A DNA stretch of 48,612 nt from Chitinophagales bacterium 65-1 (lineage in GTDB: Bacteria; Bacteroidota; Bacteroidia; Chitinophagales; Chitinophagaceae), in contig MWYX01000062.1 in the NCBI GenBank assembly GCA_002050465.1, forward strand, positions 1 through 48,612, written 5' to 3'. The notes beneath the pieces were generated by a model. That model worked only from the letters and a program-made list of their open reading frames with translations, made no database searches and was not told the DNA's origin. Every line of letters begins with the position of its first letter. The stretch's first letter is position 1. The position numbers and the translations under genes are program-made. This document shows, piece by piece, positions 16,873-39,116 of this stretch.

Positions 16873-17748
16873 TTATAAAAACAGATCTGCATATAATTTC
16901 CCCCCGGGAACTACAGCATATTTATTAAGGTCTGTAATGTCTTCAAGCGCCAACACCTCTTCGTCAATAAACGTATTACCCGTACATTCTGTGGATGGTT
17001 TACTCAAAATATAATAAGCTGCATCTGCAATAATTTCAGGGTGACGGCTCATCTTAATTAATGCATCACCTCCCAAAAGATTTTTTACTGCAGCAGTTGC
17101 AATTGTTGTTTTTGGCCAAAGAGCATTGGATGCGATCTTGTATTTTTTTAACTCTTCTGCAAGGCCTAATACAATCATAGTCATATTATACTTAGCCATT
17201 GTATATGCCACATGATTTCCAAACCATTTTATTTCCAAATTAAGAGGTGGTGATAGGGTAAGGATATGTGGATTAACAGACTTTTTTAAATAAGGTATAC
17301 AAGCCTGGCTTACAAAAAAAGTTCCTCTTCCATTAATGTCATGCATAAGGTCAAACTGCTTGGGAGTTGTTTGTTCTGCGGGAGTAAGCGTAATTGCAGA
17401 AGCATTATTTATGAGAATGTCAATGCCGCCAAATGTTTCAACTGCTTTATCTACTGCATTTTTAATTTGATCTTCAAAGCGAATATCGCATTGTACTGCC
17501 AATGCTTTTCCTCCCGCCTGTTCTATTTCCTGCGCAGCAGAAAAAATAGTTCCACCCAGTTTTGGATTTTCTTCAACAGATTTTGCGGCTACTACAATAT
17601 TAGCACCTTCCTTTGCAAGCCGTAATCCGATCGCCTTTCCAATACCTCTGGAAGCGCCGGTAATAAAAACAGTTCGGCCTCCCCAATTCCTATAGCTATC
17701 GGAACCTCCGGTGGAGGGGCTTTCCAACCCACTTATGCCGTTCTGCAT
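16873..17748 (-). CDS. SDR family oxidoreductase (HSDL2-like) with a repeat-derived N-terminus
   Basis: A 291-residue short-chain dehydrogenase/reductase like the SDR domain of HSDL2. The NAD(P) motif TGASRGIG is at residues 30-37, the structural NNAS at about 117, and the catalytic YTMAK near 180. Family members normally start two to six residues before the beta-strand that leads into TGASRGIG; here 24 residues precede it, and residues 8-24 (L-E-S-P-S-T-G-G ... W-G-G) are coded by a GC-rich palindromic element at 17677-17727. Either the element was inserted after the start codon and is translated, or the true start is elsewhere; no other in-frame ATG exists before the motif. Substrate unknown, perhaps an acyl-CoA or ketone. 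OsmC and an aldo/keto reductase lie upstream on the same strand. Confidence 0.88.
   Translation of the reverse strand: MQNGISGLESPSTGGSDSYRNWGGRTVFITGASRGIGKAIGLRLAKEGANIVVAAKSVEENPKLGGTIFSAAQEIEQAGGKALAVQCDIRFEDQIKNAVDKAVETFGGIDILINNASAITLTPAEQTTPKQFDLMHDINGRGTFFVSQACIPYLKKSVNPHILTLSPPLNLEIKWFGNHVAYTMAKYNMTMIVLGLAEELKKYKIASNALWPKTTIATAAVKNLLGGDALIKMSRHPEIIADAAYYILSKPSTECTGNTFIDEEVLALEDITDLNKYAVVPGGKLYADLFL
17677..17727 (-). repeat. GC-rich palindromic element inside the SDR gene
   Basis: Read on the minus strand it runs from AAAGCCCCTCCA to ATTGGGGAGGC. Inside are two hairpins: CCTCC/GGAGG with a 3-base loop (17705-17717), and TTCC-x-ATAGCTAT-x-GGAA (17687-17704), a palindrome with one mismatched pair. 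It codes exactly residues 8-24 of the SDR. Its ends match those of the element at 38723-38764. The GC content is far above that of the surroundings. Confidence 0.7.
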
Positions 17749-35329: not shown

Positions 35330-38065
35330 CTATTCCATATTAGGCCTTAACCATTTTTCCATTTCTTCCAACGGCATATTTTTTCTTTTTGCATAGTCTT
35401 CCAGCTGGTCTCTTCCTATTTTGCCCAAGCCAAAATAATGACTTTCAGGATGAGCAAAATACCATCCGCAAACGGAAGCAGGAGGATTCATAGCAAGGCT
35501 TTCTGTAAGCTCAATACCTATATTTTCAGTAACATTAAGTAAAGAAAACAATTTTAATTTCTCAGTATGATCAGGGCATGCAGGATAACCCGGCGCCGGC
35601 CGTATTCCTTTGTATTCTTCTTTAATTAGTTGATCATTTGAGAGTGCTTCATCTTTTACATACCCCCAATATTTTTTACGAACCTGTTGATGTAAGCATT
35701 CAGCAAATGCTTCTACAAACCTGTCTGCTAAAATCTGCACTAAAATTTTATTGTATTCATCATTGTCTGCCGCAAAGCGATCAATATGTTCCCTGGCACC
35801 CTGGATACAAACAGCAAAGGCTCCCATGTAATCAGTCCCCTTTTCAGAATCAATATCTAATCTTGGGGATGGACTTGGCTTTACAAAATCTGATAAAGAA
35901 TATGTTGGCTGCCCTATTGCTTTTTTCATCTGCTGCCGCAATGATTCCAAATTCACTTCTCCATTATCAGTTTGCAATGTGATAGTATCTTTATTATTGG
36001 AGTTTGCTTCCCAAAATCCAATTGTCCCGTTAGCTGAAAACCATTTTTTGTCAATAATAGTTTTAACCATTTTTTTGGCATCATTATATAATCGTGTTGC
36101 CTCAGCACCAAAAATTTTATCCGTAAGCACCTCGGGAAAACGACCAGGCATTTCCCAACCTATAAAGAACGGTCCCCAGTCAATATATTCTGCAATAGTA
36201 CCCAAGTCAAAATCTTTAAACACTTTGATACCGTCAACAGCTGGCTTCACAGGTTGATAATTCTTCCAATCAAAATATTCTTTCGTTACTACTGCTTCTT
36301 CGTATGGTATTAAAACCTTGTATTTTTGTTTATTTGAGAACTGTGTTTGAAGATTGGAATATTCGACTTTTACATTTTTAAGAAAATCGGGTTTTTGTTC
36401 CTTACTTAATAAACTTCCTACAGCTGTTACGCTTCGGGAAGCATCTAACACATGCAATACCCCATTATCATATTCAGGCGCAATGCGGACCGCAGTATGC
36501 ATCCGTGAAGTGGTGGCGCCGCCAATCAATAAAGGAATTTCAAAATGTTGGCGCTTCATTTCTTTAGCAATGTGTACCATCTCATCTAATGATGGTGTTA
36601 TTAATCCGCTCAATCCTATTATATCCACGTTGTTTTCTTTAGCAGCCTGTAAAATTTTATCTGCAGAAACCATTACACCAAGGTCAATGATATCATATCC
36701 ATTGCAACCCAACACAACACCAACAATATTTTTCCCGATATCATGCACATCGCCTTTTACTGTTGCTAATAAGATTTTTGCAGCTCCTGCCCCTTCTTCA
36801 TTTTTTGTTCCTGCAGCCACATGAGCAATTCTTCGTTCTTCTTTTTCCGCTTCTATGTAAGGAGTTAAAATAGCAACAGATTTTTTCATCACCCTGGCGC
36901 TTTTTACTACCTGAGGTAGAAACATTTTACCGCTGCCAAAAAGATCACCAACGATATTCATTCCATCCATTAAAGGGCCTTCAATAACATCCAATGGCTT
37001 GGAATATTTTAGTCTTGCTTCTTCTGTATCTGCATCAATATAATCTGTAATTCCATTAACCAGCGCATGACTCAGCCGTTTTTCTACAGGCTCACTTCTC
37101 CATGCCTGGTCTTTAACCTCAACTTTGCCTTTTTGTTTTACTGTTTCTGCAAATCCAAGAAGTTTGTCTGTTGACTCGAGATCCCGGTTTAATATTACAT
37201 CCTCACAAAGCTCTTTTAATTGCGGCTCAATTTGCTCGTAAACCTGTAGCTGGCCTGCATTTACAATACCCATACCCATGCCTGCCTTTATTGCATGATA
37301 TAAAAAAACAGAATGCATTGCATCCCTTACGGTATCGTTGCCACGAAATGAAAAAGAAATATTACTTACTCCCCCGCTCACTTTAGTAAGTGGCATTTTT
37401 TGTTTTATTATCCTGGTGGCTTCAATAAAATCAACGCCGTAATTATTATGTTCTTCAATTCCTGTTGCTATTGCAAAAATATTTGGATCAAAAATTATGT
37501 CCTGAGGATCATAACCAACCTTTTCTGTTAATATCTTATATGCTTTTTCGCATATCTTCACTTTCCGGTCTTGCGTATCTGCCTGCCCTTTTTCATCAAA
37601 GGCCATTACGATAACAGACGCTCCATAGCTTTTACAAATTATTGCCTGCTCAATAAATTTCTCCTCCCCTTCTTTCATTGAAATAGAATTCACGATACAT
37701 TTACCCTGTACGCATTTCAGCCCTGCTTCTATAATATTGAATTTAGAAGAATCGATCATAACGGGGATCTTTGCAATGTCCGGTTCAGCCTGTAACAAGT
37801 TTAGAAATGTTGTCATTGCTTTTTCCCCATCCAGCAAAGCATCATCCATATTAACATCTAAAATTTGTGCACCATTTTCCACCTGTTGTCTTGCAACAGA
37901 AAGTGCTTCTTCATATTTATCTTCCCGTATTAACCTTGCAAATTTTTTAGAGCCCGTTACATTAGTACGTTCGCCTACATTCACAAAATTTGTTTCCGGA
38001 CGAACTACTAGAGGCTCTAAGCCTGCTAATCTTAAAAAAGGTTGTATTTGTATTGTATCACTCAT
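35330..38065 (-). CDS. metH: Methionine synthase, folate, B12 and activation domains
   Basis: The larger part (911 residues) of cobalamin-dependent methionine synthase. In order: the pterin-binding domain from [20 protein letters not shown] (about 25-285), the four-helix cap (about 330-430), the B12 Rossmann domain with DVHDIGKN, whose His ligates cobalt (about 435-450), and the reactivation domain with the SAM-site motif [12 protein letters not shown] near residue 840. It lacks the homocysteine domain, which is encoded by the next gene upstream, nine bases away. This two-gene arrangement is usual in Bacteroidota. I see no cobalamin or SAM riboswitch in front of the pair. Confidence 0.96.
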
Positions 38066-38074
38066 ACTTTATTA

Positions 38075-39116
38075 TTATACCGCTAACTCTTCTTCTAATG
38101 CAGGTAATTCCCTGGTCTTGTATTTTTTTACCTGTTCTGCAATATGTTTAATGTGATCAGGCGTTGTACCACAGCAACCACCTACAATATTTACAAATCC
38201 TTCTGCCGCCCATTCTTCAATAATGTGTGCGGTTTCATGTGGCTGCTCATCATATTCGCCAAAGGCATTTGGCAAGCCTGCATTAGGATATGCAGAAGTG
38301 TAACAACTTGCCAATTGACTTAGCTCTTCAATGTGGGGACGCATTTCTTTTGCTCCTAAAGCACAATTCAATCCTATACTTAAAGGTTTTGCATGTGATA
38401 CAGAAATATAAAATGCTTCCAGAGTTTGTCCGCTTAAGGTACGTCCACTGGCATCGGTGATAGTTCCGCTTATCATTATGGGAAGCTCCTTTTGCTTTGT
38501 ATCTCTGAAATATTTTTTAATTGCATAGATGGCGGCTTTGGCATTGAGCGTATCAAAAATTGTTTCGATCAAAAGAATATCAACTCCCCCATCAACTAAT
38601 CCTTTTATTTGTTCATAATATGCACCTGCAACTTCATCAAATGTTACTGCACGGTAACCCGGATTATTTACATCTGGTGATAAACTTAAAGTTTTATTTA
38701 AAGGACCTATGGCGCCTGCAACAAAAGCCCCCTCCAACCCCCCCCCCCATTGGGGAGACTTTCCGAGATTCTAAAAATTTGGTAACAGCATTTCTGGCAC
38801 ATTTAGCTGCTGCTACGTTTAACTCGTATGCCAATGATTGCATATCATAATCTGCCATAGCAATGGTTGTGCTACTGAATGTATTGGTTTCTATAATATC
38901 AGCTCCTGCATCTAAATACTGCAGGTGAATTTTTTCAATAATGTCAGGTTGTGTAATACTTAAAAGATCATTATTGCCTTTTACATCTTTATGCCAGTCC
39001 TTAAATCTTTCTCCGCGGTAATCTTTTTCTTCAAGTTTATGTCGCTGGATCATGGTGCCCATAGCACCGTCAATTATTAATATCTTTTCCTTTAACCGAT
39101 CGTGAATTGTTTTCAT
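38075..39116 (-). CDS. metH: Homocysteine S-methyltransferase part of methionine synthase, frameshifted at a G run
   Basis: The N-terminal homocysteine/zinc domain of methionine synthase as a separate gene, in two overlapping frames: 39116 to 38694 and 38737 to 38075. The first has [12 protein letters not shown] and [13 protein letters not shown]; the second has [19 protein letters not shown] and the zinc cysteines GLNCALG and GGCCGT. On the coding strand the joint is an 11-base G run (38738-38748). Ten Gs would give one 346-residue protein reading [12 protein letters not shown]. The residues [11 protein letters not shown] are extra compared with the family and come from a palindromic element (38723-38764). 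The break is either a sequencing error or a slippery tract that varies in vivo. Confidence 0.88.
38723..38764 (+). repeat. GC-rich palindromic element with an 11-base C run inside the metH N-part gene
   Basis: On the plus strand it runs AAAAGCCCCCTCCA, then C11, then ATTGGGGAGAC and TTTCC. The ends match those of the element at 17677-17727 (AAAGCCCCTCCA and ATTGGGGAGGC on the minus strand). CCCC-ATT-GGGG forms a short hairpin. Here it lies antisense to the host gene, whereas the other copy is in sense orientation. That argues for a dispersed element rather than a conserved peptide. Confidence 0.7.

Follow-up and report, generated by a model that had tools for sequence, protein, structure and literature searches.

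Short palindromes inserted within protein-coding genes raise the question of what they are and of what might move them. Here we follow up one such insert, in the methionine synthase gene (metH) of Chitinophagales bacterium 65-1, whose genome as assembled measures 1.96 Mb and is 79.5% complete; the window, meaning the whole stretch of 48,612 nucleotides that was analysed, is contig 2 of this assembly. The initial annotation reported the metH element together with a second copy in a short-chain dehydrogenase (SDR) gene, and it was right in the main. The element is present and above chance, but its peptide frame, orientation and type identity needed correction, and the link to DUF559 nucleases, which is the stronger finding, was absent from that note.

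The insert in metH

The methionine synthase of the window is encoded on the minus strand by two ORFs, both confirmed by Pfam, of which the first spans 38075-39116 and the second carries the remainder of the enzyme (Table 1). The element sits in the first ORF, between two halves of the homocysteine S-methyltransferase domain that both match PF02574, and in the sense of the gene (minus strand) it reads AAAGTCTCCCC-AAT-G11-TTGGAGGGGGCT. The 5' part of the ORF finds matches in 55 of the 59 genomes searched, its own included. When C-run lengths of 9-12 were tried, the metH frame was kept across the element with ten C and broken with 9, 11 or 12, and the form with ten G is 36 nt long, which is the canonical length. 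An assembly error or a slippage mutation probably accounts for the extra C. The run could also be a phase-variable tract, which here is indistinguishable from an assembly error. An addition of 11 residues between conserved parts of the domain had been described; its position stands, but the reading continues into FVAGAIGP only with ten C. Likewise, the description of both window copies as near-frame-preserving holds for the SDR copy but not for the metH copy as assembled.

Table 1. Features of the metH and SDR loci in the window
Feature	Position	Strand	Remarks
Type-A palindromic element in metH	38726..38762	-	37 nt as assembled, canonical 36
C11 homopolymer inside the metH element	38738..38748	.	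shifts metH frame by +1
Homocysteine-methyltransferase (MetH N-terminal) ORF, 5' part	38763..39116	-	PF02574 profile positions 1-88
Same MetH N-terminal ORF, 3' part, other frame as assembled	38075..38737	-	PF02574 profile positions 92-283
Rest of methionine synthase, separate ORF	35330..38065	-	PF00809, PF02607, PF02310, PF02965 (pterin-binding, B12-binding, activation domains)
C-type palindromic element with nested palindrome, SDR N-terminus	17677..17723	-	in frame (ESPSTGGSDSYRNWGG)
Short-chain dehydrogenase gene hosting the second copy	16873..17748	-	PF00106

In a model of a MetH that has the element (40-row alignment, mean pLDDT 82), the element residues 121-132 form a coil that follows a helix (95-121) and precedes a strand (134-139); confidence there is low, with a block mean pLDDT of 56. 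Human methionine synthase, the closest solved enzyme, is nine residues shorter at this site. From the low-confidence coil and the shorter human enzyme it appears likely that the element occupies a surface loop, as had been supposed.

The ends of the metH and SDR copies had been regarded as matching. They are indeed related palindromes, but the SDR copy belongs to another type, CCCCTCCACCGGAGG, and encloses a second, nested palindrome, CCGATAGCTATAGG, and the treatment of both copies as one type was dropped. Opposite orientations had also been assigned to them; the ends of the element are near-palindromic, so its sense was read instead from the order of hairpin and G-run, and by this architecture (hairpin first, G-run tail second) both copies have the same sense relative to their hosts. 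The SDR element is present in G000 and G010 and absent in 11 of the 13 readable N-termini from the genus (19 loci fetched). At the DNA level the nested palindrome was seen in the SDR copy only, and PIAIG in two IcmF proteins (L006, L175) suggests the same arrangement there.

The metH site was followed across relatives in 112 rows, which after removal of 13 duplicates left 99 to be placed on a tree built without the linker columns. The linker carries a type-A element in seven of these (degenerate in L075 and L099), a CCCCTCTCC-type palindrome in two, and neither in 90. Near neighbors on the tree differ (L074 with the element and L131 without, L077 with and L143 without), and the type-A label needs six changes, at least three of them across well-supported branches. 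The tree is compatible with recurrent insertion and with an old insertion followed by losses alike, and does not decide between them. No exact empty site is available, since filled linkers differ from unfilled ones in the adjacent sequence as well. The search for empty sites in orthologues, which the initial annotation had proposed, thus gave a divided answer, in that the great majority of rows hold neither palindrome, but six other rows, from other genera, have an element of this kind at this very position.

A family of coding palindromes

Sixty-seven copies aligned in register define a family core of AAGTCTCCCC-N4-GGGGAGATTTAGAGGGGGC, 36 nt or 12 codons long, with the peptide KVSPxGGDLEGA and with TAG, TGG or GTTTGG variants within its spacer. 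As these copies were collected by pattern, conservation within the core is partly built in; the drop in conservation beyond GGGGGC does not stem from this. They come from loci fetched partly for other reasons (metH, DUF559), with the strict-pattern search of the genus and the related-pattern search of the family supplying loci for 30 matches each. The metH copy of the window is outside the list because its hairpin is degenerate; its core still resembles theirs and, judged by its sequence, it is a genuine degenerate solo member of the family.

Further copies were expected from a genome-wide search, and they were found. The two-ended pattern AAAGCCCC(5-35)GGGGAG occurs at eight places in the genome, two of which are the metH and SDR copies of the window, and a stricter pattern occurs at 11, none of them in the window's contig (the two window copies do not match it); the reversed control gave zero in both cases. 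Within the window alone a single end-motif is not significant, with 10 found against 5.8 expected and 7 of 100 shuffles as high. Strict copies number 18 in G015, 23 in G010 and six in G008, all close genus-mates, and zero in the other 16 of the 20 genus genomes. Across the taxonomic family the related pattern is very patchy: 17 genomes out of 294, from 16 of the 101 genera, have matches, and the controls have none.

Nearly half of the listed copies (32/67) are spanned in frame by an ORF that extends 60 codons or more to either side of them; 20 of these have one orientation and 12 the other. The remainder lie beside an ORF (25/67) or in neither position (10/67), and none of the 67 splits a gene out of frame, that is, between same-strand ORFs of at least 80 codons in different frames. 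When only pattern-fetched loci are counted, 62 copies divide into 28 in frame, 24 beside an ORF, 10 in neither position and no frame-splitting case. The host genes, as read from sequence, include those of UvrA, SpoT/RelA, NadB, AroA (Pfam-confirmed), LeuRS, MetRS, IleRS, MetH and IcmF, and some host sites are shared between genera, UvrA by G015 and G115 and LeuRS by G008 and G269, for instance. The best explanation is that this family enters protein-coding genes in frame and would be tolerated in exposed loops. The first impression of a dispersed element that survives inside genes has therefore held up, given the further copies, the copies in frame and the 90 metH linkers without a palindrome.

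Three arrangements may be recorded here. Locus L057, the uvrA gene of the same genome, has three consecutive copies in one open frame that is cut by the locus end, and these were tallied as lying beside an ORF owing to their position near that end. In G010 (C165:6528-6826) there is an array of five type-A copies in one orientation at spacings of ~54 and 108 bases. The copies in L004, L005 and L007 start at TAAAGCC, where an outside gene reading in could stop.

DUF559 nucleases flanked by palindromes

In the IcmF and LeuRS proteins of relatives, an extra domain lies between palindromes of this kind, and Pfam identifies it as DUF559. We consider it reasonably probable that the metH insert is a solo of the coding palindrome family and that the palindromes of the family are the end-modules of a homing-like DUF559 unit. 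In the larger unit, a DUF559 nuclease would lie between two palindromic end-modules, cutting target DNA and moving the palindromes, and the whole would behave like a homing endonuclease gene, with nuclease lineages tied to sites in conserved genes and with relatives that lack it. Solo palindromes would most likely arise by loss of the nuclease part or by one end moving alone. DUF559 was found at the metH linker in none of the 99 rows, and the nuclease link for this particular site consequently rests on family resemblance.

A search of 18 hand-picked genomes (11 with and 7 without strict type-A copies) gave 52 DUF559 matches, and 50 domains were located in fetched loci. Of these, 22 lie well inside longer ORFs, where the open frame continues for over 100 residues on each side, in IcmF, LeuRS, MetRS, MetH, AroC and CinA. 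Pfam scanning of ten ORFs showed host domains accompanying DUF559 in all ten and flanking it on both sides in seven, namely those of IcmF, MetH, LeuRS site 1, MetRS, CinA, chorismate synthase and an AMP-binding CoA-ligase-type enzyme; the ORF of LeuRS site 2 is cut after DUF559, and in the ArgB-like and TrpA ORFs DUF559 is N-terminal. Pfam at E 1e-5 detected no intein splicing (Hint) domain around DUF559 in the ten ORFs, and Rfam at gathering score gave no match in the window, L191, L174 or L040, so an intein or a known ribozyme intron is ruled out in the loci tested. With the reading frame uninterrupted and no splicing machinery found, host and nuclease probably form a single protein in which DUF559 is an internal domain, which would require that the host-DUF559 fusion is translated. 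In L228 (G259), a single leucyl-tRNA synthetase ORF has an in-frame DUF559 nuclease at each of two sites, and the two nucleases differ.

The association with palindromes was tallied by a fixed hairpin criterion in the 44 DUF559 domains with 360-nt flanks on both sides. A palindrome lies on the right in 28, on the left in 20, on both sides in 13 and on either side in 35, compared with 11 of 800 control placements with such flanks on any side (window controls: 1 left, 1 right and 0 both of 400; metH-locus controls: 6 left, 4 right and 1 both of 400). Bracketing is concentrated in the 21 domains inside longer ORFs (right 19, left 12, both 10), the other 23 being bracketed less (right 9, left 8, both 3). 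In 22 of 32 cases the right palindrome lies 26-60 nt from the domain end. Several palindrome types are involved, with type A beside some domains (e.g., L189, L204, L220, L223, L224, L228), and in a CoA-ligase-type gene of G008 those flanking DUF559 share their type with dispersed copies in the genus. Among family genomes, DUF559 (E <1e-15) is present in 15 of the 16 that have the strict element and in 7 of 16 that lack it, the latter taken at neighboring handle numbers (Fisher 0.006).

Some observations count against the proposed unit. By the fixed criterion, 16 of the 44 domains have no right palindrome; strict solos outnumber DUF559 matches in G010 (23 vs. 9) and G015 (18 vs. 4); G083 has the strict element and no DUF559; and in G000 IcmF, host sequence separates the left palindrome from DUF559. 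In favor of the unit, the IcmF site is found in several states, with DUF559 and a right palindrome peptide in G000, G010, G015, G001, G018, G031 and G203, a palindrome alone in G090, a remnant in G003, and in G008 what we read as a scar with both element ends and no hairpin (GGAAAGTC/AGAGGGGGC). The other IcmF loci read are without DUF559. Insertions seem to replace a few host codons, and no target-site duplication of the kind looked for in a MITE, and no exact empty-filled pair, was found among filled and unfilled sites, which are too diverged.

The DUF559 domains have the sequence features of a nuclease-type fold (PD-(D/E)XK / EDxHD / Vsr-like). An alignment of 32 sequences, retained from 40 first tried, contains 14 invariant columns, among them D64, E75, D77 and H81, and the only solved structures matching a DUF559 model below E 0.001 are 3hrl and then the homing endonuclease I-Bth0305I. 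A profile search agrees, the match to 3r3p having E 3.6e-4 by fold and 8.1e-6 by profile. PADLOC returned weak restriction-enzyme and DpdF matches, and the NCBIfam DUF559 model was matched far below its cut-off. A finite dS was obtained for 28 of 41 pairs, and in all of these dN/dS is below 0.45, with dS mostly near or beyond saturation.

On a tree of 47 DUF559 domains (the partial L195, L205 and L230 left out), host-site labels, which are our own reading with ten ORFs checked by Pfam, change 12 times, the minimum for 13 labels; shuffled labels average 28.6 changes and none of 200 shuffles was as low. By genome, the same tree shows 35 changes. The IcmF, MetH, LeuRS-2 and AroC lineages are each well supported, and LeuRS site 1 has two lineages, one beside type-A and one beside type-B palindromes. 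This site-tied pattern would fit homing and, equally, old insertions inherited with losses. At IcmF, DUF559 is more diverged than the host flanks and there is no sign of recent transfer. At LeuRS site 1, the DUF559 domains of G031 and G259 are 75% identical and their flanks 57% and 67%, identities which favor transfer; other pairs are mixed.

Competing explanations and related systems

An alternative that we regard as unlikely holds that the palindromes are mere targets, spread by something else, which DUF559 homing endonucleases recognize and land in or beside. The excess of strict solos over DUF559 matches in G010 and G015 would suit it, as would the separate lineages adjoining type A and type B at the single LeuRS site 1 and the host sequence interposed in G000 IcmF. 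Against it stand the regular short distance of the right palindromes and the left and right copies that mirror each other in a number of units, plasmid units from other phyla among them, as would be expected of ends.

It is less probable still that these are old vertical insertions with many losses and no present mobility, the palindrome being kept for a role in RNA or DNA. The site, orientation and frame in metH are common across genera and are accompanied by a shared upstream TCTCG-like stretch, the IcmF domains diverge beyond their host flanks, and site-tied lineages suit inheritance as well as homing. Nevertheless, the patchy spread over 17 of 294 genomes, the restriction of multiple copies to four of the 20 genus genomes, the occurrence of two palindrome types at one metH site and the LeuRS site 1 identities of G031 and G259 (other pairs being mixed) argue against purely vertical descent.

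Repetitive extragenic palindrome (REP)-like elements moved by Y1 (RAYT/IS200-type) transposases are a further and very improbable source. Y1 matches occur in 10 of the 11 genomes searched, one of them in G000 (C23:3517) ~2 kb from type-A copies (C23:1395 and C23:6229), and REPs can occur inside genes, according to passages of PMC3733652. Yet none of the 27 Y1 genes with full flanks (of 39 matches, several of the 27 being partial or weak) has a type-A hairpin within 1.5 kb, the two that are bracketed are bracketed by another palindrome, CTCCGCC, and G031, at 72% completeness, carries type-A copies but gave no Y1 match. Y1/RAYT was rejected as the partner on these counts. The proposed unit does resemble REP/RAYT systems (REPtrons) in combining dispersed palindromes with a gene bracketed by them, but the bracketed gene here is DUF559 and not Y1, and the tested Y1 genes are without these palindromes. 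The GTAG tag of REPtrons is absent from the core, and GTTAGC just upstream of some intergenic copies is a weak resemblance. The two bracketed Y1 genes, L266 (G010) and L267 (G015), have their own palindrome, CTCCGCC...GGCGGAG, which differs in sequence from the element here, and look RAYT-like.

Finally, a chance GC-rich repeat or an assembly artefact is conceivable still for the single extra C, with a C11 run that breaks the frame in a MAG and a window-only motif count that is not significant, but it is ruled out for the family by reversed controls of zero beside the genome counts and by same-site orthologues in separately assembled genomes, and as a general account it has a negligible chance of being correct.

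Returning to the homing-like unit with palindromic ends, its closest counterparts among known systems each share part of its features. Rickettsia palindromic elements (RPE; Ogata et al., 2000, and later in Wolbachia, as cited in PMC2229807; also treated in PMC10969869) are likewise dispersed palindromic repeats which, as their descriptions have it, lie in frame in unrelated and often conserved genes and add a short peptide. In the passages of PMC2229807 and PMC3733652 devoted to them, they measure 105-150 bp with CGTC at one end, whereas the present element is ~36 nt, has the core AAGT...GGGGGC without a CGTC end, and belongs to another phylum. CGTC repeats, including the assigned RPE of R. 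conorii, are reported in PMC3733652 without a dedicated transposase, while a nuclease partner is proposed here. EDxHD (Vsr-like) homing endonucleases such as I-Bth0305I show fold and profile similarity, site-tied lineages, patchy presence and insert-free alleles; the solved chain of I-Bth0305I is labelled a mobile intron protein, whereas DUF559 is an in-frame internal domain with adjoining palindromes, and no intron or intein was found around it in the loci tested, unlike the I-Bth0305I setting. The element appears to work like both an RPE and a homing endonuclease unit, and we file it as a member of neither; for RPE, compared by description, this is because their length and CGTC end were tested and not found. 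A methylase of phage ShiLan (PMC11855218) offers a third parallel, a homing-like insertion that, according to the abstract, is open in frame with its host gene with no known splicing, though its HNH nuclease lies in a different frame and the abstract makes no mention of palindromic ends.

No earlier description of the palindrome-DUF559 association was found in the open-licence literature searched, mostly at listing or passage depth. PMC9403480 mentions DUF559, as does PMC12907096, which does not contain the word 'palindrom'. A nuclease with palindromes on its flanks, in the same kinds of gene, makes the question of what moves coding palindromes directly testable, and genes for essential enzymes in which an entire nuclease domain shares the unbroken frame, without indication of splicing, are relevant to the ways in which proteins acquire loops and domains. 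More tentatively, and as a proposal that may well prove too broad, DUF559 with paired C-rich palindromes could constitute a class of mobile element that crosses phyla, homes into genes and operons, and often lies in frame in essential proteins without splicing. Its detached ends would disperse as protein-coding elements, and DUF559 would then be the mobilizing enzyme that has been missing for one kind of coding palindrome or more.

Plasmids of Cyanobacteria, Deinococcus and Alphaproteobacteria provide a view beyond the phylum. Palindromes lie within 250 nt of DUF559 genes in all ten loci read, on both sides in six, and some pairs are mirror images; these are ten hand-chosen records of 39, and the three from Deinococcus look like one orthologous site. 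Of 210 control windows placed in six of the loci, 16 had a palindrome on the left and 16 on the right. Three plasmid DUF559 genes lie in a Deinococcus hpa cluster, and on a Sphingomonas plasmid (L315) sufB and sufC enclose a DUF559 gene whose two flanking palindromes are mirror images. At a second site in metH, the G010 loci L040 and L072 have a 40-residue in-frame insert composed of two palindromes plus a spacer; it may be a unit from which the nuclease has been lost.
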